Of a stretch of DNA of 64,000 nucleotides, positions 4,406 to 22,303 are shown in pieces. The position numbers and the translations under genes were made by a program. Position 1 is the first letter of the stretch. Every line of letters starts with the position of its first letter. The notes beneath the pieces were generated by a model. It saw only the letters and a program-made list of their open reading frames with translations. It searched no databases and was not told the origin of the DNA. The DNA is from Kordiimonas pumila (GTDB lineage Bacteria; Pseudomonadota; Alphaproteobacteria; Sphingomonadales; Kordiimonadaceae): positions 124,001-188,000 of the forward strand of contig NZ_CP061205.1 of NCBI RefSeq assembly GCF_015240255.1, given 5' to 3'.

Positions 4406-4421
4406 TATACATATATGTATA
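4406..4421. promoter_or_regulatory. 16-bp palindromic operator, copy 1 (purU-folD)
   Basis: TATACATATATGTATA is a perfect 16-bp palindrome in the divergent region between purU and the TetR gene. The same 16 bases occur at 22206-22221, and 15 of them at 10414-10428. Exact recurrence at three gene starts points to a transcription-factor site. The divergent TetR regulator is the obvious candidate binder, but that is an inference. Confidence 0.65.
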
Positions 4422-4607
4422 TATTGAATCACCCAACGTCAAGCGTGGAAATATGCACTTAGAAGATAAAATGATAGCGCCGCACAAGGTTCGGTGTGGC
4501 AACCCCCCTGCACCTTGGTAGAAAATTATATGGTTTTACGTCTCACTGAACATCAGGCTGATTGACAACACCACAGTCTTGCTTAATATCACTCTGGGAG
4601 TTAACTT

Positions 4608-5213
4608 ATGGTCAACACTACAAAAATCCCAGCCAAGCAGTGGTTGGAAACAGCAAAAAATGCCCTCATTAATGAAGGCATTGCAGGGGTGAGGGTCGAT
4701 AGACTTGCCAAAACACTAGGCGTCACCCGTGGAGGATTTTACCACAACTTCAAAAATCGTGAAGATCTCCTAGATCAGCTACTTAACCTGTGGGCAACAA
4801 ACAATAAATTCATACCCGATACAAACCTGCCCAGCACCCCCGAAGAAGCTGTCGCATATCTCAATCTTATGCTTGATTGGCTGATTTCGGAAGAAAGCTT
4901 TTCACCTACTTTTGATCTCGCCATCAGGGAATGGGCACGGGTTGACACAAAAGCCGACAAATTCCTGAGCAAAATAGATCAAGAACGCCTCAACAATCTT
5001 GCCAACGTATTTATGACTATAGGCTGTGAAAAAGGCGAGGCGCAAACCCGAGCCAAGGTTTTTTACTATCACCAGATTGGCTATTATTCGATGGGCCACC
5101 ATGTTACGCAAGATAAAAATGAGCGGCGCCTTGAAGCCCCCATCTACTTACGTATTCTATGCGGTCAGCGCTATCAAGATGCGAACGACAAACTAAACCA
5201 AAAGTGGCTCTAG
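4608..5213 (+). CDS. TetR/AcrR family transcriptional regulator
   Basis: A 201-residue DNA-binding regulator. The N-terminal helix-turn-helix is typical of TetR: ALINEGIAGVRVDRLAKTLG followed by VTRGGFYHNFKNREDLLDQLL (about residues 16-58). The rest is the helical ligand-binding and dimer domain, which shows no recognisable ligand motif. The gene sits between purU-folD (divergent) and the sox genes (convergent, stops 20 bases apart). It is therefore a natural candidate regulator of both folate and sarcosine genes. The palindrome at 4406-4421 lies in its shared upstream region, so autoregulation is possible. The family is certain; the target genes are inferred from position. Confidence 0.92.
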   Translation: MVNTTKIPAKQWLETAKNALINEGIAGVRVDRLAKTLGVTRGGFYHNFKNREDLLDQLLNLWATNNKFIPDTNLPSTPEEAVAYLNLMLDWLISEESFSPTFDLAIREWARVDTKADKFLSKIDQERLNNLANVFMTIGCEKGEAQTRAKVFYYHQIGYYSMGHHVTQDKNERRLEAPIYLRILCGQRYQDANDKLNQKWL

Positions 5214-5233
5214 AATACTAGAACCACCGGCTA

Positions 5234-5821
5234 TTACCCATCCATCCCTGACATAGTTTTCTCAAGCATACGCCAAGCATATAAAGCCACCGACTGATCA
5301 ACCACAATATCAACCTCAGCTAAAGCGCCAACAACAAGCCCCGCTTTAACATCCCCCAACAAGGTCTGTACACACACAGCAGGGCCATGCCAATCATCCA
5401 CAAGCCCGATAGGGCTAAGCTTTTGAATAACTGCCATAGCATCAGAACCACTAAGACGCATAAGGCTAAGCATATGATCAACCTGAAGCACCAAAGCTGT
5501 TTCCCCTGCCAATAAAAGCTGCAGCTTATCAGCCAGCGTACTCACCTTTTCTGCTTCACCAATAATAAGCCATTCCCGGTCTGACAACCAGCAAACACGC
5601 ACTCCACTTTTCTCAGAGTAAGTGTTGGGTTGATCAGGCACCGCTTGACCCATACATTTGGAGATAGCTTTCTTTTCAATCTTACAGCCACGCCCGAGAG
5701 AAACTTTACAAAACCCTATACCGGGTATTTCCAGAAGTGATGTAGAACCACATGAAAATGCTTTCGCTGGCATTATAGAGTGCTCAGTTCCCAAAGGCGA
5801 TCTTTTCCTAACTTCATGCAT
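5234..5821 (-). CDS. soxG: sarcosine oxidase gamma subunit
   Basis: The small gamma subunit of heterotetrameric sarcosine oxidase is related to the GcvT fold and helps hold the folate-binding side of the complex. The 195-residue length is normal. Segments such as REWLIIGEAEKV, ALVLQVDHMLSLMRLSGSDAM and VCVQTLLGDVKAGLVV match the SoxG pattern of a strand-rich domain with a conserved Arg-Leu-Ser-Gly stretch. Its start overlaps the soxA stop by 8 bases, so the two are translationally coupled. It is the last gene of soxB-soxD-soxA-soxG. Confidence 0.9.
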   Translation of the reverse strand: MHEVRKRSPLGTEHSIMPAKAFSCGSTSLLEIPGIGFCKVSLGRGCKIEKKAISKCMGQAVPDQPNTYSEKSGVRVCWLSDREWLIIGEAEKVSTLADKLQLLLAGETALVLQVDHMLSLMRLSGSDAMAVIQKLSPIGLVDDWHGPAVCVQTLLGDVKAGLVVGALAEVDIVVDQSVALYAWRMLEKTMSGMDG

Positions 5822-8792
5822 TTAACAGTTCCCCTTTAGGGTCGTATACACATGGAGAAACCAAGCGTGCCTTGCGTGATTTTCCTAAACTCCATACCTG
5901 AACCTCCTCGCCAATACGCATGGATGCACACTCCACCAGCCCCAGAGCGACAGGTCGCCCAAGTGTGGGCGACATAACACTAGAAGTTACCCATCCTTGA
6001 GTTTTTCCAGGCGCAGAAGCATGCAAACCAATAACATGGCCCCCAATATCAAGAGGTCCTTTACCATCGAGCACTTCAATACCAACAAACTGCCGACGAT
6101 CACTGCTAAGGGCATTCTCTGTCATCAGTGAACGTCGACCAACAAAGTCATCAATTTTCTTTGCAATAATATTCCCAAAACCCACATCCATAGGCAGTGT
6201 TGTGCCATCGGTATCAGCCCCTACATGCAGAAACCCTTTTTCCACCCGCATAACCATCAAGGCCTCAACACCGAAGGGCGTAATCTGCTCAGGTTTACCG
6301 CCCTCAAGAAGCAGTTCCCACAGATAATGGCCATATCCCCAAGGGACAGAAACTTCGTAGGATACTTCGCCTGAAAAACTAACCCGTTGCACGCGGCATG
6401 GCATACCTTGAAGTACGCCAAGCTTTTGCGCCATATGAGGGAAATCATCCGGGGCAAAACTGATGTCACTTTCAAGGCGCGACAAAACCTGACGGGCTTT
6501 AGGTCCTGCTACCGTTATGACAGCCCAATTTGTCGTAACATTCTCCGTTACGACATCCAAATTCAGCCACTCACATTGCAGCCACTCCTGCAGCGCTTCA
6601 TGTATAGCCTCAGCGTGACCGCTAGTTGTACCCACAAGATAATGATTTTCCCCAAGACATGCTAAAATACCATCATCATGAATAATTCCCTGCTCATTCA
6701 ACATAAGGCCATACCGGCACTTACCCGGCTTCAGGGTTTTCATATTGTTAACATAAATGCGATTCAAAAATTCGGCCGCATCTGTGCCTACAACCTCAAT
6801 TTTTCCAAGTGGTGATGCCTCAAAAATGCCAACACCATTTCTAACTGCCATGACTTCTCTTGCGATAGCCTCATCTTCACTCTCACTGCCCTGTGCATAA
6901 TATACAGGACGCAACCATCTGCCATAGTCTTCAAAAACAGCACCTTGCTTAACATGGCTTTCATGCGCAGCCATTTGAGAAAGAGGATGCAGGTTTTCCC
7001 CAATCCGCATGCCCGCCATGGCACCAATAGCTACAGGATCATAAGGTGGACGAAACTTGGTTGTTCCTACCTGAGCCATGGAAACACCCATTGTTTTTTC
7101 CATAACACCAATGGCATTTACATTTGATGTCTTGCCCTGATCAGACGCCATTCCAAGGGTTGTGTAGCGCTTCACATGTTCTACAGAGCGATAGTTCTCC
7201 CTAAGTGCCAAACGGATATCACTATCAGTGACATCATGCTGAAAATCTATCCATGCCTTCGGTCTTGAACCCCGCAGGCCAGACACATCGATCTGCCGAA
7301 TAGGGCACTGAGCTCCAAATTCAATGCCCCCAGCTATTGTAACCGGTGGAGGCTCTTGAGGGTCATAACCTTCCACCCTAAGAGCATCAGCTATTACACT
7401 TATAGCATTCTTGATACTTTCTGTAATATCGTACCGTCCAGCAGCTGCACCCACAGATATCTCTTTCTGTACAGAACGCACAGGCTTAAAACCTTGTATC
7501 TCTTCATCAAAAGCGAGTGAGCCACCCGATTGAGAAAATAACTGCACACACGGCGACCACCCCCCAGATGTTAGCAATACATCACAGTCCACGCGCTGAG
7601 CCGTTCCCGTCAGTGCCGCCCCGCTTTTGTCTATTTGATGCAACTCAAGTGAGTGAATACCATTTTTGCCATACGTGTTTGTCACAGCTGTAGAAAAATA
7701 AACCGGAACGCCTGAATGCACTATATCCTGCACAATCTGTGCATTGGAACCAGGCCGCAGGTCTACAATGGCTTTCACTTTTATACCCGCTTTTACATAC
7801 GCAAGGGCGACCTCGTAAGCACTATCATTTGATGTGCAGAAAACAGCATTTCGCCCACATGCCACACCGTATCGCTGCAAATATGCCTGCGCTGCAGAAG
7901 AAAGCATAATTCCTGGCCTGTCGTTCCCTGGAAAGACAAGGGGCCGCTCTAGAGCACCGGTCGCCTGAACAACCTGCTTGGCCCTTATCTTCCAAAGGCG
8001 TTGCCGCACAGCTTTTTTCTGCGTGCTTTCACGAATAACTGTTTCAAGAAGCCCTATAAGCCCGTGATCATAAAACCCAAAAGCAACAGTATTATTTAAC
8101 AGCCTGACATTTTCCATTGCTGCCAATTTAGCAACGATATCTTTTACCCAAACGGATGCCGGGCTACCGTTAATGCTGGTCTCATTTGAAAGAAGCATAC
8201 CGCCCCATTCGCTATCAAGATCTACAAGAACCACCTTTGCACCTGAAAGCCCCGCAAAATAGGCGGAAATCAGACCTGTCAACCCACCACCAACAACCAG
8301 AAAATCAACCGCTTCATAAACGTGTTCGTATGCATTAGGGTCGACACTATCTGGGCTCTTGCCCATACCAGCAGCCCTTCTAATAGTTGGCTCGAACAAG
8401 TGCCAATCTGGCCATATGAAGGTTTTATAATAAAAACCTGCAGGCAAAAATGCCTGAAACATGCCTGTGACAGACATTAAGTCAAATTTCGCAGACGGCC
8501 ATGCGTTAACAGAGCGGGCATGCAAGCCGTCATACAACTTAATTGAAGTTGCCTTAACATTAGGAACAGTTTCCGCCCCAGTTTCCAGCTGAACCAAGGC
8601 ATTGGGCTCATCGATCCCTGCCGTTAAAATACCGCGAGGGCGGTGATATTTAAAACTACGTGCAACAACACTCACACCATTTGCAAGCAAAGCTGAAGCA
8701 AGCGTATCCCCTTCATAGCCAGTATGTAGCTTGCCATCAAAACGGAAGCTTATTTTCTTGCCTGCAGGTAAAGAAACACGATAGCCACTCAT
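5814..8792 (-). CDS. soxA: sarcosine oxidase alpha subunit
   Basis: The large subunit of heterotetrameric sarcosine oxidase has 992 residues, the usual size. An N-terminal ferredoxin-like domain (YEGDTLASALLANGV, about 26-40) is followed by a dinucleotide-binding domain with LVVGGGLTGLISAYFAG (about 164-180), a middle domain with TSGGWSP (about 409), and a C-terminal aminomethyltransferase (GcvT-like) domain from about 580 on. That last domain transfers the methyl carbon to THF, giving 5,10-methylene-THF instead of free formaldehyde. The start overlaps the soxD stop as ATGA, and the end overlaps soxG. The cofactor assignments are family knowledge. The link to folD and purU downstream fits that product. 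Confidence 0.96.
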   Translation of the reverse strand: MSGYRVSLPAGKKISFRFDGKLHTGYEGDTLASALLANGVSVVARSFKYHRPRGILTAGIDEPNALVQLETGAETVPNVKATSIKLYDGLHARSVNAWPSAKFDLMSVTGMFQAFLPAGFYYKTFIWPDWHLFEPTIRRAAGMGKSPDSVDPNAYEHVYEAVDFLVVGGGLTGLISAYFAGLSGAKVVLVDLDSEWGGMLLSNETSINGSPASVWVKDIVAKLAAMENVRLLNNTVAFGFYDHGLIGLLETVIRESTQKKAVRQRLWKIRAKQVVQATGALERPLVFPGNDRPGIMLSSAAQAYLQRYGVACGRNAVFCTSNDSAYEVALAYVKAGIKVKAIVDLRPGSNAQIVQDIVHSGVPVYFSTAVTNTYGKNGIHSLELHQIDKSGAALTGTAQRVDCDVLLTSGGWSPCVQLFSQSGGSLAFDEEIQGFKPVRSVQKEISVGAAAGRYDITESIKNAISVIADALRVEGYDPQEPPPVTIAGGIEFGAQCPIRQIDVSGLRGSRPKAWIDFQHDVTDSDIRLALRENYRSVEHVKRYTTLGMASDQGKTSNVNAIGVMEKTMGVSMAQVGTTKFRPPYDPVAIGAMAGMRIGENLHPLSQMAAHESHVKQGAVFEDYGRWLRPVYYAQGSESEDEAIAREVMAVRNGVGIFEASPLGKIEVVGTDAAEFLNRIYVNNMKTLKPGKCRYGLMLNEQGIIHDDGILACLGENHYLVGTTSGHAEAIHEALQEWLQCEWLNLDVVTENVTTNWAVITVAGPKARQVLSRLESDISFAPDDFPHMAQKLGVLQGMPCRVQRVSFSGEVSYEVSVPWGYGHYLWELLLEGGKPEQITPFGVEALMVMRVEKGFLHVGADTDGTTLPMDVGFGNIIAKKIDDFVGRRSLMTENALSSDRRQFVGIEVLDGKGPLDIGGHVIGLHASAPGKTQGWVTSSVMSPTLGRPVALGLVECASMRIGEEVQVWSLGKSRKARLVSPCVYDPKGELLNA

Positions 8793-9106
8793 TTATTTGT
8801 CTCTTTTTGTTTGCCCGTTGGTGTTAGTTTTTGCACGTCTGGTTTTGGGTCAGCCATCAAGTAAACAGATTTTATTTCGTGCGTTACTGTATCGCGCGCA
8901 ACGTTAAACCATTGGCGGCACCCGTGCTTATGCACCCACCGCTCAAAGTGCAGCCCTTTGGGATTTTGACGGTAGAACAGGTATGATGCCCATTCGGCGT
9001 CGGTCACCTTATCAAACGGCTCTGGGCGCTGAATGTGACTTTCGCCGCCACAGCAAAACTCAACTTCGGCACGAGGGCCACACCACGGACAATCTATCTT
9101 TAACAT
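8789..9106 (-). CDS. soxD: sarcosine oxidase delta subunit
   Basis: The small zinc-binding subunit of the heterotetramer. The protein begins MLKIDCPWCGPRAEVEFCCG, with the Cys-x2-Cys, further Cys and His residues expected for the SoxD zinc site, followed by PFDKVTDAEWASYLF and the NPKGLHFERWVH segment seen in the family. The start at 9106 is preferred over an in-frame ATG at 9154 for three reasons. AAGAAGGG lies 6 bases before it, the upstream extension would overlap soxB, and known SoxD proteins begin right at the Cys motif. The length is then 105 residues. The ATGA overlap with soxA shows coupling. Confidence 0.93.
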   Translation of the reverse strand: MLKIDCPWCGPRAEVEFCCGGESHIQRPEPFDKVTDAEWASYLFYRQNPKGLHFERWVHKHGCRQWFNVARDTVTHEIKSVYLMADPKPDVQKLTPTGKQKETNK

Positions 9107-9119
9107 TACAAGCCCTTCT

Positions 9120-10376
9120 TTAATGAGCGATGCCTGCACCAGCAGCTTCATCAATCAAGCGGCCAGTCTCAAACCTTTTTAAGCTGAACGGGGCTACAAG
9201 CGGATGAGGCTCATCATTAGCCATAGTATGTGCAAAACAATATCCACCGCCCGGTATTGCCTTGAAGCCACCCGTACCCCAGCCACAGTTGAAATAAAGC
9301 CCTTTCACTGGGGTTTTCCCAACAACCGGCGTTGAATCGTGCATTACATCGACAATGCCAGCCCACTGGCGTAGAAACTTCACTCTGGAAAACTGTGGAA
9401 ATAATTCAACGATACCTGCGGCAGACGCTTCCATAGTAGGCAAATTACCGCGCTGCGCATATGATGGGTACAGATCAAGCGACGACCCTATAACCAAACC
9501 ACCTTTATCTGATTGGCTAACATAAACCCCAGTCGCTGGTGACAGAAGAACTGTATCAAGGCACGGCTTTAAGGGCTCAGATACATAAGCCTGTAATGCA
9601 TAGGATATTATGGGCAAATTAAACCCAGCCATTTGAGCAATCATACTTGAATGGCCAGCAACGGCCACACCAACTTTCCCTGTTTCAATGCGGCCACGAG
9701 ATGTCTCCACAGCGTTGACCTGACCATTTTCGATACCAAACCCTGTTACTTCACAACCCTGAATGATATCAACACCCAAGGCATCAGCCGCACGAGCATA
9801 TCCCCAGACAACAGCATCATGCCGAGCCGAACCACCACGGGGCTGATTAAGCCCCGCCATGATAGGGAATCTGGGGGAAGGATTAAGCCCCGGAACGCGC
9901 GCTCTCACTTCATGTGGACTTAAAAACTCGGCATCAGCACCATTTAGCAGCATGGCATTTGCTGATCGCCGGAGCATCTCCACACCATGACGATCATGCG
10001 CCAACATCATCATGCCGCGCTGAGAAAACATGACGTTATAATTGAGTTCCCTAGATAGGCCCTCATACAACTTTAAAGAAAAATCATAAAAAGCCGTACT
10101 TTCCGGAAAAAAATAATTAGAGCGTACGATCGTCGTATTTCGACCGCTATTACCACCACCAATCCAGCCCTTTTCAAGCACTGCAATATTTTTATAACCA
10201 TGGACCTTTGCAAGATAATAAGCTGTAGCAAGCCCGTGGCCACCACCGCCTATAAGGACCATATCATACTGGCGTTTAGGCTCAGCATTCCGCCAAGCAG
10301 GCTTCCAGCCAACATGCCCGCGCAGCGCTTCTACCGCGAGGGAAAGGGCAGAATATTTTTTAGAAAACTTAACCAT
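9120..10376 (-). CDS. soxB: sarcosine oxidase beta subunit
   Basis: The catalytic flavoprotein subunit oxidises sarcosine (N-methylglycine) to glycine. The 418 residues are typical. The FAD-binding VLIGGGGHGLATAYYLA lies at about 40-56, with EKGWIGGGNSGRNTT at 68-82. GGSARHDAVVWGYAR (about 181-195) carries a histidine (residue 186) in the region that holds covalent FMN in characterised SoxB proteins. The C-terminal YFNCGWGTGGFKAIPG completes the family pattern. It is the first gene of soxBDAG. No strong ribosome site is visible before the ATG. A 15-base copy of the palindromic operator lies 38-52 bases upstream, so its transcription is probably controlled separately from the symporter gene behind it. 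Confidence 0.96.
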   Translation of the reverse strand: MVKFSKKYSALSLAVEALRGHVGWKPAWRNAEPKRQYDMVLIGGGGHGLATAYYLAKVHGYKNIAVLEKGWIGGGNSGRNTTIVRSNYFFPESTAFYDFSLKLYEGLSRELNYNVMFSQRGMMMLAHDRHGVEMLRRSANAMLLNGADAEFLSPHEVRARVPGLNPSPRFPIMAGLNQPRGGSARHDAVVWGYARAADALGVDIIQGCEVTGFGIENGQVNAVETSRGRIETGKVGVAVAGHSSMIAQMAGFNLPIISYALQAYVSEPLKPCLDTVLLSPATGVYVSQSDKGGLVIGSSLDLYPSYAQRGNLPTMEASAAGIVELFPQFSRVKFLRQWAGIVDVMHDSTPVVGKTPVKGLYFNCGWGTGGFKAIPGGGYCFAHTMANDEPHPLVAPFSLKRFETGRLIDEAAGAGIAH

Positions 10377-10413
10377 ACATATACTACATTTTTTACGATT
10401 TCACATACCATAT

Positions 10414-10428
10414 TATACATATATGTAT
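10414..10428. promoter_or_regulatory. palindromic operator, copy 2 (soxB)
   Basis: TATACATATATGTAT is the same site as at 4406-4421, lacking only the last base of the 16-mer; its 14-bp core ATACATATATGTAT is a perfect palindrome. It lies in the 101-base gap between the symporter stop and the soxB start, where a promoter for soxBDAG is expected. Confidence 0.65.
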
Positions 10429-10477
10429 TTTTCAAGGTAAAAATAGCATCAACAAAGAACAGAAAGTGACTTTCCCT

Positions 10478-11836
10478 CTATTCCGATATTCCGAAAATAA
10501 TCAATAATATCAATATGATAGGTATTATAAATTTAACAAGAAATATCCAGCTCTTAAAAATCATAGAATCTGTATGTTTTCCGAGTTCCTCTGCGATATG
10601 AGCTGGCTTTACACACCAACCGGCAAACAAGGCAATCAACAATCCCCCTATAGGTAAGAATATACTGTTGGAAATATAATCAACAAATTCAAAAAAGGTC
10701 ATACCGTTTATAATGAACATCGACGAACCAGACATCGAGAAAACAACAATAACCCCTATAAGCCACAATAACCCAATAATAAGCCAAATTGCTTGTTTAC
10801 GCCTGAGATAACCATGCTCTTCAAACCACGCCACCCAAGGTTCTGTAATAGCAATACAGGAGGTAAACGCCGCGCATACAAGTGCTAGAAAAAATAAAGG
10901 CGCAAAAAACCATCCGCCTGTCATTTCTGCAAAAATTGCAGGTAAGGTCTGAAATACCAGCCCTGCCCCACCAGAAGGTTCTAAGCCAAAGGCAAAGACT
11001 AGTGGGAAAATGGCAACCCCAGCAACAAGCGCCACCCCTGTATCAACCAGACAAACCACCAAAGCCGAAGATGTTATGTCCTCGTCTTTGTCTAAATAAG
11101 CGCCATACATCATCATCGCCGCCATAGCCACGCCGACTGAGAAGAAGGCCTGACCAACAGCTGATAAAACTGTAGCAAAACTAATTTTACTGAAGTCGGG
11201 GTTAAAGAGAAACCCAAGCCCTTTTGATGCATCCCCGACCCACAATGAATAAATTGCCAAAAACAACACCAGAGAAAATAGTAATGGCATCAAAATATTC
11301 ACGGCCTTCTCAATCCCACCGGTCAAGCCTTTTGATACAACCCAACCAACTAAAATTAGGAAAAGACTATGCCCGATAAGCATTCGCCAAGAATCGGCAA
11401 GAAACCCCTCAAACAATGCGGTTGCCGCTGGTCCATCAAGCTCTAAAAATTCACCACCCAAGCCACGAAAAGTATAATCCAGTGTCCAGCCACCAATCAC
11501 GGCATAATAACTGGTAATCAGAAAAGCTGTAAACATGGTCAGGGCACCTACGAAACCCCATTTACCAGACCGTCCACTTTCTTTTGCAACACGTGCAACA
11601 CTCTCCCAAGGTGTACCCTGGCCGCGGCGCCCAATTGCCATTTCAGCCATAACCAGTGGCAAACCAATAAGAAGAACACATAGAAGGTAAACAAGAACAA
11701 AGGCACCACCGCCGCTTTCACCCGTAACATAAGGGAACCGCCATATATTTCCCAAGCCAACTGAAAACCCTATCGTGGCCAGTAAAAATGCCAGTTTACT
11801 CGACCATTTTTGTCCGCCCGATTTTGCTATAGCCAC
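10478..11836 (-). CDS. neurotransmitter:sodium symporter (NSS) family transporter
   Basis: An inner-membrane sodium-coupled amino-acid carrier of the LeuT type with 452 residues and 11-12 predicted hydrophobic segments. The diagnostic first helix is present (WSSKLAFLLATIGFSVGLGN then IWRFPYVTGESGGGAF, about 12-47), followed by LPLVMAEMAIGRRG. The unwound helix 1 that holds substrate and sodium is therefore intact. Its stop lies 101 bases before soxB on the same strand, which suggests it imports sarcosine, another N-methyl amino acid or glycine. That substrate is inferred from context. A degenerate version of the palindromic operator is found about 86-101 bases upstream. Confidence 0.95.
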   Translation of the reverse strand: MAIAKSGGQKWSSKLAFLLATIGFSVGLGNIWRFPYVTGESGGGAFVLVYLLCVLLIGLPLVMAEMAIGRRGQGTPWESVARVAKESGRSGKWGFVGALTMFTAFLITSYYAVIGGWTLDYTFRGLGGEFLELDGPAATALFEGFLADSWRMLIGHSLFLILVGWVVSKGLTGGIEKAVNILMPLLFSLVLFLAIYSLWVGDASKGLGFLFNPDFSKISFATVLSAVGQAFFSVGVAMAAMMMYGAYLDKDEDITSSALVVCLVDTGVALVAGVAIFPLVFAFGLEPSGGAGLVFQTLPAIFAEMTGGWFFAPLFFLALVCAAFTSCIAITEPWVAWFEEHGYLRRKQAIWLIIGLLWLIGVIVVFSMSGSSMFIINGMTFFEFVDYISNSIFLPIGGLLIALFAGWCVKPAHIAEELGKHTDSMIFKSWIFLVKFIIPIILILLIIFGISE

Positions 11837-13817: not shown

Positions 13818-13833
13818 TTTCGGCTCCAGATTT

Positions 13834-13886: not shown

Positions 13887-15182
13887 CTAACTATCGTTGC
13901 GCACCACATCACCAGACTTCATAACGAAGCTAACTTTTTCAATATTGCTAATATCATCAATAGGGCTAGCAGGCGTTGCTACAATATCAGCTTTTTTGCC
14001 CACAACGATGCTACCAATTTTATCCTTGAGGCCAAGCATTTCTGCACTATTGATGGTCCCCGCCTGCAAAACATACCAATTGTCAGGAATACGCTTTGCC
14101 AGTGCCTGAAATTCCTTGATTGCTTCTTTCATCGGGAAAATAGGATCTGAACCAATGAGGATCTTGATATTATGCTTGTATGCCATCTTCACGGAATCAC
14201 TATGCATAGTGCCAACAAGTTGGGCTTTTTCATAATTATTAGCGGAAATACCACCCGTGGCGCCTCTATCCAAAATCCAGTCCAGCACATACAGTGTAGG
14301 GATATAATAGGTGCCTTGCTTGGCCATAAGCTTGGCTGTTGCCTCTTCCATCATGGTGGCATGTTCGATTGAGTCGAAACCGGCCTCAACAGCCGCCCTG
14401 ATAGCTGCATCTCCGTGCGCGTGAGCAGTGATTTTCTTTTTGTACCGGTGTGCTTCATCAGCAAACGCCTTGAATTCTTCAGGGCTATATGCTGCAACCT
14501 CAGGGTCGTCATGCTGTGACATAACCCCGCCACTTGCCATTACTTTAATCCAGTCAGCGCCGTATTTGATCTCTTCGCGTACCGCCTTGCGAATTTCCTC
14601 CGGGCCATCAGCAATAAGCGGCCCTAACACTTTATGGGGCAGATCAGGTGCATAAGAATTGTAATCACCGTGCCCACCAAGCGCTGAAATTGCGTGTGGC
14701 GCAACCAGCATGCGTGGTCCTTGATATTCACCGCGGTTAATTGCGTTTCTTACTTCAATATCAGGGTAGTAATACCCCATATCACCCGGCACACGAATTG
14801 TGGTAAAACCAACGCTCAGAAGAGTCTGTGCATTGCGCATTGCCATCAACGCATTATAACCATACGACTGTGTAGGCGATGCCTGATCAAGTGTTGCCGA
14901 CGTTAGATCAGTCACCAAGTGCGCGTGCATATCCATCAAACCCGGCAAGCAAACACTCTTTGACAGGTCAACAACCTTTGCACCACCCGGCGCTTGCACA
15001 TCTGTGCCTATTTTTGTGATCGTATCATTTTTGATCAAGACCTGTTGGTTTTGAAGAGTTTTTTTATTTTCAACATCAAGAACACTGCCACATTTCAGCA
15101 CTGTCCACTGATCCTCTGCCTGTGCGCATGTACCCATGACAGCAAGCACGAGGCCTACCCCTATAAATCCACTTTTTATCAT
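13887..15182 (-). CDS. periplasmic metal-dependent amidohydrolase
   Basis: A 431-residue enzyme of the amidohydrolase superfamily, in the imidazolonepropionase/prolidase-like branch that cleaves amide bonds of N-acyl amino acids or dipeptides. The Sec signal MIKSGFIGVGLVLAVMGTCAQA puts it in the periplasm. All binuclear-site ligands are visible: MDMHAHLV, the lysine in DWIKVMASGG that would be carboxylated, TAHAHGD, SIEHATMM and the aspartate in ILIGSDPIF. The start has GGGAG 7 bases upstream. It lies downstream of two receptor genes on the same strand, suggesting it acts on what those receptors bring in. Exact substrate unknown. Confidence 0.93.
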   Translation of the reverse strand: MIKSGFIGVGLVLAVMGTCAQAEDQWTVLKCGSVLDVENKKTLQNQQVLIKNDTITKIGTDVQAPGGAKVVDLSKSVCLPGLMDMHAHLVTDLTSATLDQASPTQSYGYNALMAMRNAQTLLSVGFTTIRVPGDMGYYYPDIEVRNAINRGEYQGPRMLVAPHAISALGGHGDYNSYAPDLPHKVLGPLIADGPEEIRKAVREEIKYGADWIKVMASGGVMSQHDDPEVAAYSPEEFKAFADEAHRYKKKITAHAHGDAAIRAAVEAGFDSIEHATMMEEATAKLMAKQGTYYIPTLYVLDWILDRGATGGISANNYEKAQLVGTMHSDSVKMAYKHNIKILIGSDPIFPMKEAIKEFQALAKRIPDNWYVLQAGTINSAEMLGLKDKIGSIVVGKKADIVATPASPIDDISNIEKVSFVMKSGDVVRNDS

Positions 15183-15271: not shown

Positions 15272-15284
15272 AGGTATCAACGAA

Positions 15285-17504
15285 TTAAAACTCTTTACTA
15301 ACCACAAGGCCAAACTGGCGTGGTTCAAGCGGTTTGATAAAATAGGATTCACCGCCCGCAACAAGGTCTCTCGAAATCGACGTATAATCATAACTGTCGA
15401 ACAGGTTATCAACATATGCTGATAGCCTCCAGCCAGTATCATTCACGTAGCTCACCCTCATATCAAGGCGGTCATAGCTTGGCACTTCAAGCTGGGCACC
15501 AAGCGCCGCCACCAAAGAACCATCAGCCACCGTTGTGCCGTCCACATACCGGTATGATGCGAACAGTTCAATATCGGCCTCGGCTGAAATAGGCAGCGTA
15601 TATGTAACATTAGCTGCTGCTGTCAGTTTTGGTGTGTTTTCAAAATGTTTACCAGAGAAATCAACCGCATTTCCAGAACCATCAACCTTGAGGAAATCTT
15701 TAAATTCGGTATCTGCATATGCCACATTTCCACTAAACTGTAATTGGTCAGAAGGATAAGCAAACAGTTCCAACTCAAAGCCTCGACTGCTACTATCTGC
15801 GGCATTATCGATAACAGTAACCGGTGTAAGGCCGTTCGGATCTGGTACTGTATTTAAGAGCTGCTGCCCGGTGATCTCAATCCAGAAAGCGGAAAGGTTC
15901 ATAACAACAGCATTATCAAAGAAGGTCGATTTAACGCCGATTTCCCAGTTTTCAGATTTTTCATCCTCATAGGAAAGTACCGCATTTTCGCGAGACGGGA
16001 ACCTGTTCAAGCCACCTGCTTTCCAACCTTGGGCAAATGTCGCATACATATTCACAGTATCAGTAAGGTCATACCCGGCCGAGAACATGAAGGACACATT
16101 GTCATAATCTGCGTCACCCGTTTTATCGAGCGGAATGAAAGTGGTACCATAAAGTGCCAGAACACGGTCACCGCCAACATTTACAGATTCTTCAGAGTAG
16201 CGCACACCTGCCGTTAATTCAAAACGATCGGTCAGACTATAACTACCTTGAGCAAAAGCCGCCCAGCCATCCCTGTTTTCAAAAAAACGCTCACGGATAT
16301 AAAGTGGTACATAACGGGCACCCGGTCCAAAATCAAACTCCCGTCCCTGGTCCATTTTCTGTTCAAAATAATAAAGGCCAACAAGCCAATCCAACTTGTC
16401 AGTTGCGCCCGAAAGCCGAAGCTCTTCACTCATGAACTCCTGATCAAGCATAACCTGATGCCGAAGCCCCTGAGCCGCAACAGGGTCTGCTGAAAGCGGG
16501 CTTGATGGGTCTGACGGAAACACAAGAATACTCTGGTCTGTTGGTATCCCATCATAATCAAGTGTGATATCTGAACTAGCCTTACGGTACCCCGTAATGG
16601 ACGTAAGCGTAATATCTGGGGTTAAGTTGTAATCGATATTCAATTGAAGACCCACATTATCCTTATGGTCTTCATCGTGTTCATCAGCCAACGCTTCATA
16701 TTTTACGCCCCCCAAAGGTACACCCACTGCCATATCATTGAAATCTTTTTTCAAAGCATCAGCCGTAAATACAATTTCCAAATCTTCATTTGGAACCCAG
16801 CGAAGCGAACCACGGGCAGTTATTTGCTCTGACGGGTCCTCATCAATATCTAGGGTACGATTATAAATATAACCATCCGTACGACTGTATTCAGCGCTAA
16901 CACCCGCATATAGGTTTTCACCTATTGCGCCGCTCATGCTGGCTGAAACCCGGTATGTGCCAAACTCTGCAATCTCGGCAGAAACACGTCCCCGCATCTC
17001 TTCATCAGGCTTGCGGGTTACCATATTGATAGCTCCTGCCTGAGTGTTTCGCCCAAAGAGGGTACCTTGTGGGCCCCGCAGTACCTCAATCCGCTCTAGA
17101 TCAAGAAACGCTGTATCAAAGCCAACCTGAGGCTGATACATGCCATCAATAAAAACACCCACGGCAGGCTCTAAGCCGCCATTAAAGCCTACACCGCGCA
17201 TGGAAATATAATTAAAGTCACTTGTTGGTGCTGCACCACCTCCATACGAAAAATATACCCCCGGAACTCTGCCGTACAGGTCCGTGATATCTTCAAGGCC
17301 CTGCTTTTCTATATCTGCTCCCATCACTGCCGTGACAGCCAGAGGCACATCTTGCAAACTTTCTTCCCGCTTCCGAGCTGAAATAACAATTTCTTCTATT
17401 TGTGTTGTTTCCGCAGCAAGCACTGTGCCCGGCACAAGTGCCGCTGTGCCAACCGATGAAAGCAATGCACACAAAACCGCTGGTGATACTATTATTTTTC
17501 TCAA
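15285..17504 (-). CDS. TonB-dependent receptor
   Basis: An outer-membrane receptor of 739 residues. It has a signal peptide (ending VLAAETTQ), a TonB-box-like EEIVISARKRE (about 37-47), a plug domain with VEVLRGPQGTLFGRNTQAG (conserved RGPQG at about 148), and a 22-strand barrel ending in the aromatic FGLVVSKEF. The start codon is TTG at 17504, supported by GGGAGG only 5 bases upstream; no better ATG is near. It is transcribed ahead of the periplasmic amidohydrolase (103 bases apart) and looks like the uptake partner of that enzyme. The many GRNTQAGA-type plug features are of the siderophore/vitamin class in sequence, but the ligand here is more likely an organic amide or peptide given its neighbours. 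Confidence 0.93.
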   Translation of the reverse strand: MRKIIVSPAVLCALLSSVGTAALVPGTVLAAETTQIEEIVISARKREESLQDVPLAVTAVMGADIEKQGLEDITDLYGRVPGVYFSYGGGAAPTSDFNYISMRGVGFNGGLEPAVGVFIDGMYQPQVGFDTAFLDLERIEVLRGPQGTLFGRNTQAGAINMVTRKPDEEMRGRVSAEIAEFGTYRVSASMSGAIGENLYAGVSAEYSRTDGYIYNRTLDIDEDPSEQITARGSLRWVPNEDLEIVFTADALKKDFNDMAVGVPLGGVKYEALADEHDEDHKDNVGLQLNIDYNLTPDITLTSITGYRKASSDITLDYDGIPTDQSILVFPSDPSSPLSADPVAAQGLRHQVMLDQEFMSEELRLSGATDKLDWLVGLYYFEQKMDQGREFDFGPGARYVPLYIRERFFENRDGWAAFAQGSYSLTDRFELTAGVRYSEESVNVGGDRVLALYGTTFIPLDKTGDADYDNVSFMFSAGYDLTDTVNMYATFAQGWKAGGLNRFPSRENAVLSYEDEKSENWEIGVKSTFFDNAVVMNLSAFWIEITGQQLLNTVPDPNGLTPVTVIDNAADSSSRGFELELFAYPSDQLQFSGNVAYADTEFKDFLKVDGSGNAVDFSGKHFENTPKLTAAANVTYTLPISAEADIELFASYRYVDGTTVADGSLVAALGAQLEVPSYDRLDMRVSYVNDTGWRLSAYVDNLFDSYDYTSISRDLVAGGESYFIKPLEPRQFGLVVSKEF

Positions 17505-17834
17505 CTTAACCTCCCGTTACATCTTTTAATACTCAGATAAGTGGCCTTGACTGTTGTTTGACAGTTTAGGATGCATCACATTACCGGCTTATTTCTATAT
17601 CATCTCGTGCCAACGTTACTTTTAATTGCCATGTAACTTAGAAGGTAATAATTCAGAATTATTTCTTACAAATCCATACTTAATACATTGATTTATATAT
17701 ATATTTTTTATAAAAAATCGTAAAATATAAAAAGCTATAAGCGACTAAATTTCTATATCGCCTGTCTACATGCAGTCTATTCGGGCAATCTGCACCTACC
17801 CTAAACAAGGAGGTAGGTGCAGATATCACCCTGT
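17505..17834. other. intergenic region between two receptor genes
   Basis: The 330 bases are AT-rich and hold no credible gene. They contain a perfect 17-base palindrome, AATAATTCAGAATTATT (17647-17663), upstream of the second receptor's start, and the 13-bp hairpin that ends the first receptor's transcript (17788-17824). The palindrome is a candidate operator. Confidence 0.5.
17788..17824 (-). terminator. 13-bp perfect hairpin after receptor gene
   Basis: ATCTGCACCTACC (17788-17800) and GGTAGGTGCAGAT (17812-17824) form a perfect 13-bp stem with an 11-base loop, starting 10 bases past the receptor stop. It is not followed by T residues, so termination may need Rho. Confidence 0.55.
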
Positions 17835-20126
17835 TTAGAAATTATACCGGAACACCAATCTCATTCGCCGAGGTGGTTGGGCAAACTGTTCGTTGAACGT
17901 AACGCCCCCTGGCAATGTGTATCCTTGGGCCATAAATGCATTATCAAATGCATTTATGCTTACAAAGTCAGACTCATTTGTGAGATTAGAAACATAAAAT
18001 CCAAGTGACCAATCTTCCGCCCGAACACCAAAACCTGCATTCAGAATACCAAAATCCCCAATCGGAATGGCTGTTGCACTGAATGTGGAAACATAATCGC
18101 CGGTATAAACATAAGAAGTGTTTACATACCACTCCAGCATATCCGAGATACGGTCCGTATATTCACCACCAAAGTTAAAGCTGGTTTTCGGCGTATTCGG
18201 AAGCTGGGTACCTTTTGGAAGCACAGCTCCTGTTAACTGGTTCGTCTCAAGATCTTCGCCAAGTTCCGCTTCAATATAGCTAAAACCTCCATACACCCTT
18301 AAATGCTCGTTCACATGAGCGTTTATTTCAGCTTCAACCCCTATATTGCGTGCTTTACCCGCATTCAGAAACAATCCAAATCCAAGAGGGGCTACCGATA
18401 TAGCACTTTGCATGTCGGTATAATCTGTGTAGAAGCCCGCAAGATTGAATGTAACCTTACGGTCTAAAAGGGTAGACTTCAGACCCAATTCATAAGTTTC
18501 TGTTCGATCATCCTTGTATGCCTCAAAACCCTGACTTGAGCCAGGTGCAAACACTTCCATTGTAGCAAGTGTCGCGGGTGAGTTCAGGTTACCATTCCGG
18601 GCGCCTGTAGCATAGCGAGCATACAGCAATAAATTATTATTTACATGGAATTCAAGCGCTGCCATGGGCAAAAGAGTGCTTATTTTCACCTCTTCAGATA
18701 TTTCAGGAAGGCCAAATGGAGCTCCAAAAATAACAGTTGTGGCAGCTGGTGTGAACACATCAATGGTTTCATTATGGCTTCTTAGGCCGGCAATGATCTT
18801 CCACTGCTCATTAAAGCTATATTCAACCTCTGCAAAAACAGAATACTGCTTGCCTGCGTTTGAAAAAGGATCTGCATCTCCATCACCGTACCCCAAAATT
18901 TCAAGTGACTCTGAAAGGCTATTGCTTGGCAAGCCAAAAAGTAAGTAGGAGTTCGAAATTACATCACCATCCTTTGAGGTGAACTCAAAGTCGCGGTAAA
19001 AGGCACCAGCAGAGATCTGGAACGGGCCGTCAAACTGCGATACAAATCGAATTTCCTGTGAAAACTGGCTATAATTAATCCCGTCAATTGCATAACTTTC
19101 ATCAAGCACGCCAAAATACGGATATGTCGTTAGCGAGTTCGACAGAGAATAAATCTGATCATAAACTTGACGGTTACGGCTACGGTCAAAGTAACTTGTG
19201 ATAGAGGTCAGAACAAAGCTGCCAAAATCATAAGCAATATTGCCAGATAGATAAAAATAATTATCTTTTATTTTGTCGTCACCGACCGGTAAATTAACTT
19301 GGTACTCTGACGGGTCACCCGTAATCAAACCCAATGAACCAAGCTTGGATGTATCATATGTGCCAGTAAGTCTTACTTTAAGGGCATCAGTAGGCTTAAA
19401 GAGCACTGTCCCGCGAACAAAATAAGCAGAATAGTCGTTAATATCCTTATCACCGTCAACAACATCTACATACCCTGGTGAAGCATAGCGCCCACCTGCA
19501 ATGCGAATGCCCAGCTTTTCTTGTACCACGGGCATATTCAAGGCAGCACGAAGACCAAAATCTTCACCACCGTTTGCAACATTTGTTAATTCAGCCTCAA
19601 CAGAGCCTGAAACATTTTCGAGGTCAGGGTCCTGCGTGAAATAACGCACAGCACCCGCACTTGCCCCTTCCCCAAAAAGGGTCCCTTGTGGGCCGCGCAG
19701 GACTTCAACCTGTCGCAAATCAAAAGCCCGAATTTCCACCTGTGAGCCACCAAGGGTGTTCACAGGCACATCATCTACATAAATACCCACGGGGCGCGCC
19801 GACGGCAGGTTATCCTGCGTTGTTAAAAAATTGGTAACACCGCGGATGTTCATTTCATTTCTATTAGGCCCTCGCTCCTGCATATTCAGGCCCGGTGTAA
19901 AGCGCACAAGGTCACTAGTATCTACAATACCAAGGCGTTGCAGGTCACTTTGTCCAAAAGCCTTAATTGATGAACTGATACCCTGTACACCCTGCTCTCT
20001 AAACCGAGCAGTAACGACAACTTCTTCCATCACTATTACGTCTTCTTTATCATTTGCCTGTGCCAAGATGGGCACATTCCCCATCATCAGGCCAAGCGCC
20101 GACACCCCATATAAATATGGCTTCAT
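17835..20126 (-). CDS. TonB-dependent receptor
   Basis: A 763-residue outer-membrane receptor with a signal peptide (MKPYLYGVSALGLMMGNVPILAQA), TonB-box-like MEEVVVTARFRE (about 33-44), a plug with VEVLRGPQGTLFGEGASAG (about 133-150), and a barrel ending RLVFRYNF. GGGAGG lies 6 bases before the ATG. It is preceded on the same strand by the Tat-exported gamma-glutamyltransferase-like gene (41 bases away), so the two probably share a transcript. The receptor may import the substrate or product of that enzyme. Ligand unknown. Confidence 0.94.
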   Translation of the reverse strand: MKPYLYGVSALGLMMGNVPILAQANDKEDVIVMEEVVVTARFREQGVQGISSSIKAFGQSDLQRLGIVDTSDLVRFTPGLNMQERGPNRNEMNIRGVTNFLTTQDNLPSARPVGIYVDDVPVNTLGGSQVEIRAFDLRQVEVLRGPQGTLFGEGASAGAVRYFTQDPDLENVSGSVEAELTNVANGGEDFGLRAALNMPVVQEKLGIRIAGGRYASPGYVDVVDGDKDINDYSAYFVRGTVLFKPTDALKVRLTGTYDTSKLGSLGLITGDPSEYQVNLPVGDDKIKDNYFYLSGNIAYDFGSFVLTSITSYFDRSRNRQVYDQIYSLSNSLTTYPYFGVLDESYAIDGINYSQFSQEIRFVSQFDGPFQISAGAFYRDFEFTSKDGDVISNSYLLFGLPSNSLSESLEILGYGDGDADPFSNAGKQYSVFAEVEYSFNEQWKIIAGLRSHNETIDVFTPAATTVIFGAPFGLPEISEEVKISTLLPMAALEFHVNNNLLLYARYATGARNGNLNSPATLATMEVFAPGSSQGFEAYKDDRTETYELGLKSTLLDRKVTFNLAGFYTDYTDMQSAISVAPLGFGLFLNAGKARNIGVEAEINAHVNEHLRVYGGFSYIEAELGEDLETNQLTGAVLPKGTQLPNTPKTSFNFGGEYTDRISDMLEWYVNTSYVYTGDYVSTFSATAIPIGDFGILNAGFGVRAEDWSLGFYVSNLTNESDFVSINAFDNAFMAQGYTLPGGVTFNEQFAQPPRRMRLVFRYNF

Positions 20127-20167
20127 TTATTCCTCCCAATTTATTTTATTAAAACAACGAAACTCAG

Positions 20168-21934
20168 TTACAAAGCCATCGCCATTGCAGTCCTCCTCGG
20201 GTCCCCACAACCACTAACCACGCCGTGACCATCCACAAAGAGACCGTCAAATGACCCGTGGTGCCAATTATAAGGGTTCACAACGTCAAGAGGCACGCCC
20301 AACTCCCTTGCCCGACTAATGACACTATCTCCCATACCAGCTTCCATCAGATAGGCCCCCGGATTAGAAATTGAACCACCGCCCAATCGGGGTTTTTCTA
20401 CAGATGCCTTAATATCCAGCCCAAAATCGATGTGGTTGATAATATTCTGCACTACAGACGGCACCACAGAAACGCTTGGAGACCCGCCTACAATTACGGG
20501 CTTGCCGTTTTTAAAAACCATAGTTGGCACAATGCCCGCGTTTATGCGCTCACCCCGCTTGGGCAGGCCAGATGCATAATGCGCAGAGGCGGCACAAATG
20601 CTTACACCGTCTACAAACAGACCATTGCTCCACGGCCACGACATAATAGAATGCAAAACAGTGGCTGCATTTCCCGCGCCGTCAATGACAGTAAGATGAT
20701 TACTACCCGGAGGAGGAGGCGCAGCATTTTCAAAAAGGATTTTCCAAGGTGACTGTGGCACTTCATTACCGAGAGCCTTAAACCTTCTTGCCGCCCTTTC
20801 CTTTGAAAGCCTTTCTTCCATTGGCAGGCTGGTACCCTTGAAGTTGCGAACGACAGTATCAGTACTGACATCCGCAATCACCTGTAACAGCTTGAAGGCT
20901 GTATCACCCGATGCCCAAGGAGCACCCCAAACACCAAAATCAATATTTTCCATCTGGTTAAGGACTTCAAGAACATTGGTTCCACCGTGGTCAGGTGGTG
21001 GTGAACCAACCGTCGTATAACCACGGTAGCTACTTACAGCAGGTTCATCCCAGCGGACTTCATATTTTTCAAAGTCTTCAGGCGTAATACAACCACCAGC
21101 CCTCTGCACAGTCTCGGAAAACTTCTGCGCAAATGCACCGCGATAATAATAATCAGAACCTTCTTCAGCAAGCCGCTCCAGCAGGTCAGCCGCACGCTTT
21201 TGATATAATTTTTCACCTGGACGCGGGACAAAACCATTCGGCATGAATATTTCCCTGCCTTGCGGCGTTTTCCCAACTTGCGCTACTTCTGCAAAAATCT
21301 CCCCCCATAAAAATGGGTGCGTTTCGAAGCCGTTACGGGCATAATGAATAGCTGGCGCCATAATACGCTTTTTCGACAGTACGCCAAAGCGCGCCAAGGC
21401 GGCCTCAACACCGGCCCAGTATCCCGGCGTTGTAACTCCCATTCCCGTCTTCAGATCTTTAGTCAGACTAGAGATGCCCCAGTCTTTTGGGTGATTAAGT
21501 GGTCTATTATTACTACCATTAAGATAATATATTTTACCGGTCTTGGCCTCGTAATAAAGCATTGAAAACACGCCAGTAAGACAGGTCATGTGCGGCTCAA
21601 CAACTGTCTGCATCAAGCTGGCTGCAACAATAGCGTCAGCTGCATTACCACCATCTTCCAGCACCTGCATAGCTGCATGAGACGCAAGAGGATGCGTGGA
21701 AACCGCAACACCTTTTGTGCCCGAAACCTTTTCCTTAAAGCCAAAATGCGCCTTATCGATCAATTGACGCCGCTTTTCATCTGACAGAGGTTTCCACGAC
21801 TGCTCTGTCTTGGTGCCTGCCATCGTTGCCTCAGTTGCAACAAAGCCACTTGCGTGCAAAGTATGACTTGCTAAAGCTGTAGAAGCTAATCCTGCCCCAG
21901 CATTCATAACAAATGTTCTACGATTTATATCCAC
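20168..21934 (-). CDS. gamma-glutamyltransferase-like Ntn hydrolase, Tat-exported
   Basis: A 588-residue protein of the gamma-glutamyltranspeptidase (GGT) superfamily, whose members self-cleave and use the new N-terminal residue as nucleophile. Family marks are THPLASHAAMQVLEDGGNAADA near the front and INAGIVPTMVFKNGKPVIVG near the end. The GTG start at 21934 is chosen because AAAGGG is 8 bases upstream. It gives MDINRRTFVMNAGAGLAS, a twin-arginine signal. A longer TTG-started frame begins at 21991. Key residues differ from classical GGT: the Thr-Thr-His processing site reads Ser411-Asn-His, the substrate-binding Arg region and the Gly-Gly oxyanion pair are not recognisable. It may therefore be an acylase or amidase rather than a true GGT. 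It heads an operon with a receptor. Confidence 0.82.
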   Translation of the reverse strand: MDINRRTFVMNAGAGLASTALASHTLHASGFVATEATMAGTKTEQSWKPLSDEKRRQLIDKAHFGFKEKVSGTKGVAVSTHPLASHAAMQVLEDGGNAADAIVAASLMQTVVEPHMTCLTGVFSMLYYEAKTGKIYYLNGSNNRPLNHPKDWGISSLTKDLKTGMGVTTPGYWAGVEAALARFGVLSKKRIMAPAIHYARNGFETHPFLWGEIFAEVAQVGKTPQGREIFMPNGFVPRPGEKLYQKRAADLLERLAEEGSDYYYRGAFAQKFSETVQRAGGCITPEDFEKYEVRWDEPAVSSYRGYTTVGSPPPDHGGTNVLEVLNQMENIDFGVWGAPWASGDTAFKLLQVIADVSTDTVVRNFKGTSLPMEERLSKERAARRFKALGNEVPQSPWKILFENAAPPPPGSNHLTVIDGAGNAATVLHSIMSWPWSNGLFVDGVSICAASAHYASGLPKRGERINAGIVPTMVFKNGKPVIVGGSPSVSVVPSVVQNIINHIDFGLDIKASVEKPRLGGGSISNPGAYLMEAGMGDSVISRARELGVPLDVVNPYNWHHGSFDGLFVDGHGVVSGCGDPRRTAMAMAL

Positions 21935-22303
21935 CTCATTAGCCCTTTCTGGTTCAAACCAATATAACCAACCATACATAGCCAGTTCCAACCCTGCATG
22001 GTTGAAAGTTACGCAGACCCGTCACATCGTTACTTAGCTGCGCAGCCATCACTATATCTTTTCGTTAATTCGCCGTAGTCCATCAAATAATTCACAACTG
22101 AATTCATTGATACTGCGCGCAATGAGTGGAATTATCTTAGTATATAAGGCCTGAGCCTATCTCCACTACAGGTTAGTGAGAAAAGCATCAAAAAATAAAA
22201 CATTTTATACATATATGTATATTTTGATTGCATCCCCAAACAAGGCATGTATAGTTATAGGGTAAAAGACCATCAGGGGGCACTGTGTGGGAGCATCACT
22301 TTC
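21935..22303. other. divergent regulatory region (GGT-like / AraC)
   Basis: About 370 bases lie between the leftward GGT-like gene and the rightward AraC gene. The region holds a perfect copy of the palindromic operator (22206-22221) and an inverted repeat TCATTG/CAATGA (22104-22125, 10-base spacer). No credible gene is seen apart from possible N-terminal extensions of the two flanking frames. Confidence 0.5.
22206..22221. promoter_or_regulatory. 16-bp palindromic operator, copy 3 (AraC gene)
   Basis: TATACATATATGTATA is identical to the purU copy over all 16 bases. It lies 26 bases before the longest AraC reading frame and 83 before the preferred start, in the divergent region with the GGT-like gene. 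Confidence 0.65.

Follow-up and report, generated by a model that had tools for sequence, protein, structure and literature searches.

Why does one palindrome recur at promoters of genes for one-carbon metabolism, sarcosine oxidation and peptide hydrolysis, and which protein reads it? We addressed this question in a 64,000-nucleotide stretch of Kordiimonas pumila DNA (contig NZ_CP061205.1, positions 124,001 to 188,000; here called the window, from whose first base coordinates are counted). The 16-bp palindrome TATACATATATGTATA stands upstream of purU-folD, of the sarcosine oxidase genes soxBDAG and of a locus encoding an AraC-family regulator and a gamma-glutamyltranspeptidase (GGT)-like protein. 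An initial annotation had assigned all three copies to one regulator, the TetR-family protein encoded at 4608-5213 (TetR 4608). That assignment is backed by the exclusivity of the motif in the genome, by its half-sites beside distant TetR homologues, and by covariation with the recognition helix. We consider it highly likely that the palindrome is the operator of TetR 4608, a dimer of which would read ATACA-N4-TGTAT and repress purU-folD, soxBDAG and the araC/GGT locus jointly as one catabolic module.

A re-scan of the window agreed with the annotated copies. The palindrome is exact at 4406-4421 and 22206-22221, and the single mismatch of the copy at 10414-10429 is its last base, leaving 15 exact bases (10414-10428). 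When up to three mismatches were allowed, the 16-mer matched the window five times versus 0.28 expected, and 0 of 100 shuffles reached five. A genome-wide scan (4,041,658 bases, one contig) confined the 16-mer with at most one mismatch to these three promoters, and the exact 14-mer core ATACATATATGTAT is likewise found at the same three promoters only. Reduced to half-sites and spacing, ATACA-N4-TGTAT has four exact genome copies, the fourth of which (4000703) lies within the HMG-CoA-reductase open reading frame (ORF) of locus L071. Looser matches are background, since the 14-mer with up to two mismatches occurs at 23 genome places versus 21 for the reversed control. Matches to 9 of the 10 half-site bases occupy 138 genome places (142 minus the 4 exact), about one per 29 kb, so that ~0.8 would be expected by chance in the 24-kb cluster. 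Because such matches are frequent, two of them in the cluster, ATACAATACTGTAC and ATACATTGATTTAT, are graded only as possible weaker operators. One more, ATACAGCAGTGGAT at 45972-45985 inside ORF 45777-46931, is probably background.

The copies had been described as lying near start codons, and we measured gaps of 41 bp to purU (4364), 37 bp to soxB (10376) and, if translation of araC begins at its earliest candidate codon (22247), 25 bp to araC; with an in-frame ATG farther on, near 22304, as the start, this gap would be ~80 bp. The palindrome shares its last 4 bases with a TATAAT hexamer at both purU and soxB. This overlap makes repression likely, and the placement fits occlusion. Matches to a -35 element are moderate only at all three promoters.

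TetR 4608 carries a TetR_N helix-turn-helix (HTH; PF00440, 38.4 bits against a cut-off of 24). Its AlphaFold2 model (mean predicted local distance difference test score, 85.9) consists of helices only, with an all-helical C-terminal domain, and the leading Protein Data Bank (PDB) fold matches are TetR/AcrR-type proteins, the best with a template modeling score of ~0.6. The best profile match (E value of 1.2e-10) extends mostly across the HTH. The comparisons that follow suggest that this protein is very probably the reader of the palindrome.

A first homologue search covered 98 genomes (genomes and loci are denoted by G and L numbers). The five closest TetR homologues (G037, G043, G057, G062, and G073; 35 to 43% identity) are all encoded beside sox/purU genes. 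Their tetR/soxB or tetR/purU gaps contain ATACA-N4-TGTAT, exact in G037, G043, G057 and G062 and at 9/10 in G073. Only the half-sites and the spacer are kept among these relatives, and the four central bases vary. A search of the 98 genomes with the 16-mer itself found one 1-mismatch copy in each of 4 other genomes; the exact 16-mer is therefore not conserved, only the half-sites and their spacing. In relatives the consensus extends to tCCATACR-N4-YGTATGGa. We also counted 5-mer dyads with spacers of 0 to 12 blindly in 33 better-scoring tetR upstream regions (29 clusters, window omitted). ATACA-N4-TGTAT ranked top, with 6 of the 29 clusters; the runner-up had 2, and the maximum of 200 shuffles was 3.

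TetR loci were read over 12 to 32 kb at 17 places, comprising the five first homologues and 12 chosen after their tetR upstream regions had been viewed. Two of those 12, G473 and G555, were chosen for the site itself, and G552, G422, and G771, which have Arg-Ser helices and lack a site at ≥9/10, were excluded though they scored above these two. With the sample so composed, sox or purU genes are present in 13/17 loci, the exceptions being G232, G473, G408, and G555. Three more distant homologue loci and a paralogue of the window genome (L044 to L047), counted apart from the 17, have no sox match.

Exact copies of ATACA-N4-TGTAT concentrate near tetR. In the window genome and the genomes of those five TetR homologues, 10 of 14 exact genome copies lie ≤18 kb from tetR (own genome 3/4, G037 1/1, G043 1/1, G057 3/3, G062 2/3, G073 0/2). 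Adding the 12 further genomes (G178 3/3, G110 2/3, G311 1/1, G232 1/1, G261 0/2, G540 2/2, G473 2/2, G555 1/1) brings this to 22/29, or to 19/26 without G473 and G555; G287, G271, G575 and G408 have no exact copy genome-wide. As controls, we used four genomes with soxB and without a close TetR homologue (G019, G026, G036, and G040). None of their 6 exact copies is at soxB, and the soxB promoters viewed, one per genome, reach at most 8/10; G019 and G040 each hold a second soxB outside this promoter control, and G040 has a distant Lys41 TetR homologue. Among the relatives, both exact copies in G073 lie away from tetR, and one of them precedes an ORF that matches no Pfam family (L073). Around the G062 TetR-sox locus (L043:3609-9591, 15447-19734) are genes for two Rieske oxygenases, for two flavoproteins of the Amino_oxidase family and for a GMC oxidoreductase together with its small subunit, and an exact operator at 18394 lies between one flavoprotein gene and an MFS transporter gene.

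Residues 41 and 42 of the recognition helix define three groups of homologues, Arg-Gly (RG), Lys-Gly (KG), and Arg-Ser/Thr (R-S/T). In a first set of 56 homologues (56 of 57 loci; G040 was left out for want of a tblastn match), a site at ≥9/10 was present within 350 bp in 15/21 RG loci versus 0/35 others, and many KG loci had ATACG-N4-CGTAT instead. The prediction that RG goes with ATACA and KG with ATACG was recorded before 103 further loci were read. The named search supplied 23 of these (2 RG, both with ATACA; 21 R-S/T; 0 KG). As KG genes were missing and RG genes so few among them, 80 loci were added, 24 of them unread places of an earlier search and 56 from the named search; the places G808, G944:C33, G066, G023, G1115, and G854 of the named search are absent from the set. 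The 161 loci in all comprise 47 RG, 63 KG, 47 R-S/T and 4 others. Where clusters are counted, TetRs that were nearly identical had been merged (65% identity).

The split held in the new loci. Exact ATACA-N4-TGTAT occurs in 10/16 old RG clusters (own included) and 0/18 old KG clusters, and in 7/12 RG, 0/24 KG and 0/12 R-S/T clusters among the new ones. Exact ATACG-N4-CGTAT shows the converse, with 9/18 KG and 0/16 RG among old clusters and 15/24 KG, 0/12 RG and 0/12 R-S/T among new ones. At the ≥9/10 level, ATACG is reached by 2/12 new RG clusters and ATACA by 2/12 new R-S/T clusters. De novo, the top dyad across the 161 loci was ATACA-N4 in RG (17/28 clusters) and ATACG-N4 in KG (23/40), with no exact swaps and a maximum of 3 clusters in 30 shuffles per group; the R-S/T group gave no clear dyad. 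Mean upstream GC is 0.57 for RG with ATACA versus 0.585 for KG with ATACG, and base composition therefore does not explain the split. Twelve genomes have both types, and eight of them show exact ATACA at the RG gene and exact ATACG at the KG gene. All eight belong to genus g347 and are worth roughly a single case. In the remaining genomes (own, G408, G427, and G652), the KG gene lacks an exact site, and the RG site of G408 is 9/10. On a tree of 68 RG/KG representatives, computed by a quick search after masking of the helix and weakly supported in most of its branches, the best topology has 6 helix-type changes, of which well-supported branches force 2, and 4 base changes. The base follows the helix in both independent pairs on well-supported branches, which are too few for a significance test.

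As a correlation, the Arg/Lys rule is strong. Residue 41 itself may well be the cause of the base choice. We lean slightly toward a broader proposal, in which Arg41 or Lys41 sets the innermost half-site base (ATACA or ATACG in a CCATACR-N4-YGTATGG frame), so that one side chain would insulate paralogous circuits within a cell, and the Arg41 branch would repeatedly have come to control modules for the uptake and cleavage of extracellular compounds (probably N-methylated or imino-peptides) and for the breakdown of the sarcosine set free.

Several further observations concern these TetR branches. The Lys41-Gly42 branch, with its operator ATACG-N4-CGTAT, is widespread in the phylum (63/161 loci). 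The window genome has a Lys41-type TetR paralogue of its own (L115, C1:2868013-2868537), ~3 kb from a TonB-receptor match (L047). G287 is instructive for the helix rule: it has a sox-linked TetR with DUF885, TonB receptors, purU and folD nearby and a helix with Thr41 (TTGSFY); its 20-kb stretch has no ATACA-N4-TGTAT site at ≥9/10. An imperfect dyad, AAACGTAGACTGCTCTATGTTTCG, between tetR and soxB in G287 (L150:10360-10400) may be a changed operator.

Some of the results do not fit an operator read by TetR 4608 and its homologues. Upstream of the Lys41 paralogue of the window genome, there is no exact ATACG or ATACA site, and 11/28 RG clusters have no exact site ≤350 bp from tetR. The soxB promoter of G057 is without a site (7/10), G311 has none within 350 bp of tetR, and the 12-kb contig of the sox-linked G271 (Arg41) has none at ≥9/10. 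In G575 the tetR/soxB gap reaches only 8/10, with a 9/10 site ~2 kb off, and G261 has a 9/10 site before soxB and its two exact copies on another contig. Operator 1 lies ~190 bp from the tetR start, so autoregulation is not evident. The TetRs of G473 and G555 share the motif without sox nearby, and the operator alone therefore does not mean sarcosine. (Both, L153 in G473 and L157 in G555, are Arg41-type TetRs with exact operators and have no sox/purU match in the stretch read.)

The computed sites, their exclusivity, the linkage to tetR, the promoter footprint and the helix covariation are the observations from which we infer binding, repression, an inducer and a substrate. In the proposed mechanism, a TetR dimer would read ATACA-N4-TGTAT, in which Arg41 of the recognition helix is paired with the A nearest the center in either half-site. 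At purU and soxB the operator spans the region between the -35 and -10 elements and reaches into the -10 box (TATAAT; TATATT at araC), so that bound TetR would block RNA polymerase. An inducer, at the simplest guess sarcosine or another compound of the pathway, would free TetR and jointly turn on purU-folD, soxBDAG and the araC/GGT locus. Uptake across the outer membrane and hydrolysis in the periplasm would fall to the TonB receptors, GGT, DUF885 protein, amidohydrolase and M20 peptidase; the sodium:neurotransmitter-symporter-family (SNF) transporter would serve for import, SoxBDAG for oxidative demethylation, and FolD and PurU would dispose of the one-carbon unit as formate.

TetR 4608 could instead regulate purU-folD and soxBDAG only, operator 3 being a nonfunctional link and the AraC/GGT/receptor part independent. 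The 17 homologue loci, when compared with the window proteins, have no GGT match and hence no site at a GGT-like gene. We nevertheless judge this improbable, since operator 3 is a perfect 16-mer and the TetR loci of G057, G178, G311, and G232 carry sites at TonB receptors and peptidases. Independence is rated lower in particular because the G311 operator is flanked by a TonB-receptor gene on one side and an AraC gene on the other. G311 has the closest TetR (49%), and its exact operator (10/10) in that divergent gap is placed much like operator 3; its other sites are at an M32 peptidase (9/10) and at soxB (ATGCATATATGCAT, 8/10).

There is only a small chance that the palindrome is read by the AraC-family protein 22247 or by a regulator encoded elsewhere in the genome. 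Operator 3 does lie just upstream of araC, and AraC-like genes occur in the G311 and G540 loci, the one in G311 adjoining an exact site. Such matches, however, are found in just 2/17 TetR loci, and the G311 AraC matches the window AraC over the C-terminal domain only (32% over 137 amino acids). The motif tracks TetR across genomes and changes its base with the TetR recognition helix. Moreover, AraC proteins mostly bind direct repeats, so that a strict two-fold palindrome is more in keeping with a symmetric dimer. Hardly any credence goes to the view that no operator is involved and that the copies are AT-rich stretches of promoter or remnants of a duplication. The palindrome does overlap TATAAT at purU and soxB. 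Yet it has only 3 copies in 4.04 Mb, with differing flanks; relatives richer in GC (mean upstream GC, 0.57) have the same dyad as their top one; and the soxB promoters viewed in genomes that lack a close TetR do not carry it.

With TetR 4608 as the probable reader, the gene content of the cluster can be considered (Table 1). Profile searches bore out most gene names of the initial annotation, namely, folD, purU, TetR_N, soxA, soxD, soxB, AraC and gamma-glutamyltranspeptidase; soxG, which would complete the soxA, soxB, soxD and soxG set of a heterotetrameric sarcosine oxidase, is weak. The amidohydrolase is similar to Xaa-Pro dipeptidases but below the cut-off (355 bits against 500 for NF051886), and its nearest solved structures are those of Cc2672 carboxypeptidase and Xaa-Pro dipeptidase. 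The two GGT-like proteins (20168 and 23525) score 263 and 173 bits against TIGR00066, below its cut-off of 357.85, and both pass Pfam PF01019. By eye, the N termini of the DUF885 protein, the amidohydrolase, both GGT-like proteins and the M20 peptidase (25368) are hydrophobic, twin-arginine-like, or lipoprotein-like. The best TetR and soxB matches in 18 other genomes of the same genus are weak (1.2e-16 and 9.6e-10), and this weakness is the only sign of gain or loss. Neither GC content (0.459 in the cluster versus 0.464 in the remaining window) nor a search of the window for tRNA genes, which found none, gives such a sign.

Table 1. Predicted genes and candidate operator sites of the cluster (window coordinates).
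Feature	Position	Strand	Basis or remark
folD, methylene-tetrahydrofolate (THF) dehydrogenase/cyclohydrolase	2609..3481	-	Pfam
purU, formyl-THF deformylase	3504..4364	-	TIGR00655, 329 bits (cut-off 286)
Candidate operator 1, TATACATATATGTATA	4406..4421		purU-folD promoter, purU/tetR divergent gap; purU-side edge overlaps perfect TATAAT
TetR-family regulator, proposed reader	4608..5213	+	PF00440, 1.1e-9; helix T40-R41-G42-G43-F44-Y45
soxG-like (weak)	5234..5821	-	TIGR01375, 50.2 bits, below cut-off 143.95
soxA, sarcosine oxidase alpha	5814..8792	-	TIGR01372, above NCBIfam cut-off
soxD, sarcosine oxidase delta	8789..9154	-	Pfam
soxB, sarcosine oxidase beta	9120..10376	-	TIGR01373, above NCBIfam cut-off
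Candidate operator 2, TATACATATATGTATT	10414..10429		soxBDAG promoter; soxB-side edge overlaps TATAAT
SNF transporter, proposed importer	10478..11836	-	
Possible weaker operator, ATACAATACTGTAC	11923..11936		Weak, 9/10 half-site bases; SNF/DUF885 gap, upstream of SNF transporter
DUF885 protein	11988..13853	-	N-terminal segment hydrophobic (by eye)
Amidohydrolase like Cc2672 carboxypeptidase/Xaa-Pro dipeptidases	13887..15182	-	Signal-like N terminus (by eye)
TonB-dependent receptor 1 (TBDR1)	15285..17504	-	
Possible weaker operator, ATACATTGATTTAT	17683..17696		Weak, 9/10 half-site bases; TBDR2/TBDR1 gap, upstream of TBDR1
TonB-dependent receptor 2 (TBDR2)	17835..20126	-	
Gamma-glutamyltranspeptidase-like 1 (GGT1)	20168..21991	-	Pfam; twin-arginine-like N terminus (by eye)
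Candidate operator 3, TATACATATATGTATA	22206..22221		Divergent gap GGT1 (-)/araC (+); TATATT on araC side; target araC or GGT1
AraC-family regulator	22247..23410	+	Pfam
Gamma-glutamyltranspeptidase-like 2	23525..25333	+	Pfam
M20 peptidase	25368..26969	+	Pfam

The pairing of one-carbon metabolism with a receptor/peptide-hydrolase locus had struck the initial annotation as not obvious. It is not odd, as sox, purU and folD recur with TonB receptors and peptidases in other genera, so that the whole looks like one catabolic module. The G311 locus reads TonB receptor, S9/DPP-IV, M32, DUF885, tetR, S9, purU, soxADB and then amidohydrolase, folD, TonB receptor, and AraC; that of G540 contains tetR, folD, soxADB, purU and two DUF885 stretches. 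All three exact genome copies of G057 fall within 8 kb at its TetR locus: one precedes purU, one lies where the genes of a Rieske oxygenase and a TonB receptor diverge, and one precedes the gene of an S15-family peptidase. G178 likewise has a TonB receptor and an S15 peptidase with sites at their genes. In G232, which has no sox besides a 25%-identical oxidase, the site lies between a TonB receptor and an M19 dipeptidase. Among the 17 TetR loci, a TonB-receptor match is present in 8 and a DUF885 match in 4. TonB receptors are common in many such bacteria; colocation alone is therefore weak, and the promoter sites are the better link. Together, the data suggest that the cluster genes form one catabolic module, in which N-methyl or imino compounds would be taken up and hydrolyzed to sarcosine, to be demethylated by SoxBDAG, with FolD and PurU clearing the one-carbon unit.

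Sequence alone thereby provides an uncharacterized TetR subfamily with an operator, with its likely regulon, and with a rule of protein-DNA reading that can be tested. The regulon in turn suggests that poorly known genes, those for DUF885 proteins, unassigned TonB receptors and amidohydrolases, may serve to supply sarcosine-type substrates. If the Arg/Lys rule is causal, it would offer ready-made orthogonal repressor-operator pairs.

How does this system compare with known ones? The nearest solved structures to TetR 4608 are TetR-family local repressors, TtgR, MtrR, and AcrR by sequence and 3mvp, EthR, and QacR by fold. It shares with such repressors a TetR_N HTH, an all-helical ligand domain (in the model) and a palindrome in a divergent promoter beside its own gene. 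Its matches to known structures, however, are weak, those by sequence lying mostly over the HTH. TtgR, MtrR, AcrR, EthR, and QacR mostly control efflux or lipid genes. AmtR of Corynebacterium, a nitrogen regulator belonging to the TetR family, controls creatine/sarcosine genes; its operator is given as CTAT-N6-ATAG, and as TAtCTGTCa-n2-cGACAGATAT where the bacterium possesses GlnR as well (PMC8864220). There, too, a TetR-family protein stands upstream of sarcosine catabolism; AmtR, however, exerts central nitrogen control, whereas TetR 4608 appears local, and its sites are ATACA-N4-TGTAT and not CTAT-N6-ATAG. The sarcosine oxidase genes of Pseudomonas are regulated by GbdR, an AraC-type activator, and SouR, a sarcosine-induced activator (PMC12093977). 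Both are described as activators; TetR 4608 is TetR-type, with sites placed as for a repressor, and the linked, covarying regulator here is thus not the AraC-type soxBDAG regulator of GbdR-type control. In Bacillus thuringiensis, SoxR with sigma54 regulates sarcosine oxidase genes (PMC4941409).

Operons of the glyA-soxBDAG-purU type in Corynebacterium, Colwellia, and Vibrio (PMC3691474, PMC12093977) likewise keep sox and purU together for one-carbon disposal. The regulators named for them in the accessible portions of these sources are of the GbdR, XRE, and GGDEF types, the XRE and GGDEF candidates being from Colwellia (PMC3691474), and those portions do not mention a TonB receptor and peptidase set. 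In the literature searched, with subscription journals mostly outside its coverage, neither this operator nor the Arg/Lys rule was found described. PheR (PMC13273656) is an IclR-type protein and has no bearing on the present system; comparative work on IclR motifs also exists (PMC8222616). None of AmtR, GbdR, SouR, the XRE/GGDEF candidates, and SoxR/sigma54 is the present system. It seems to be an ordinary kind of local TetR repressor with an unusually clear reading rule; within the literature searched, the operator and the Arg/Lys rule seem new.

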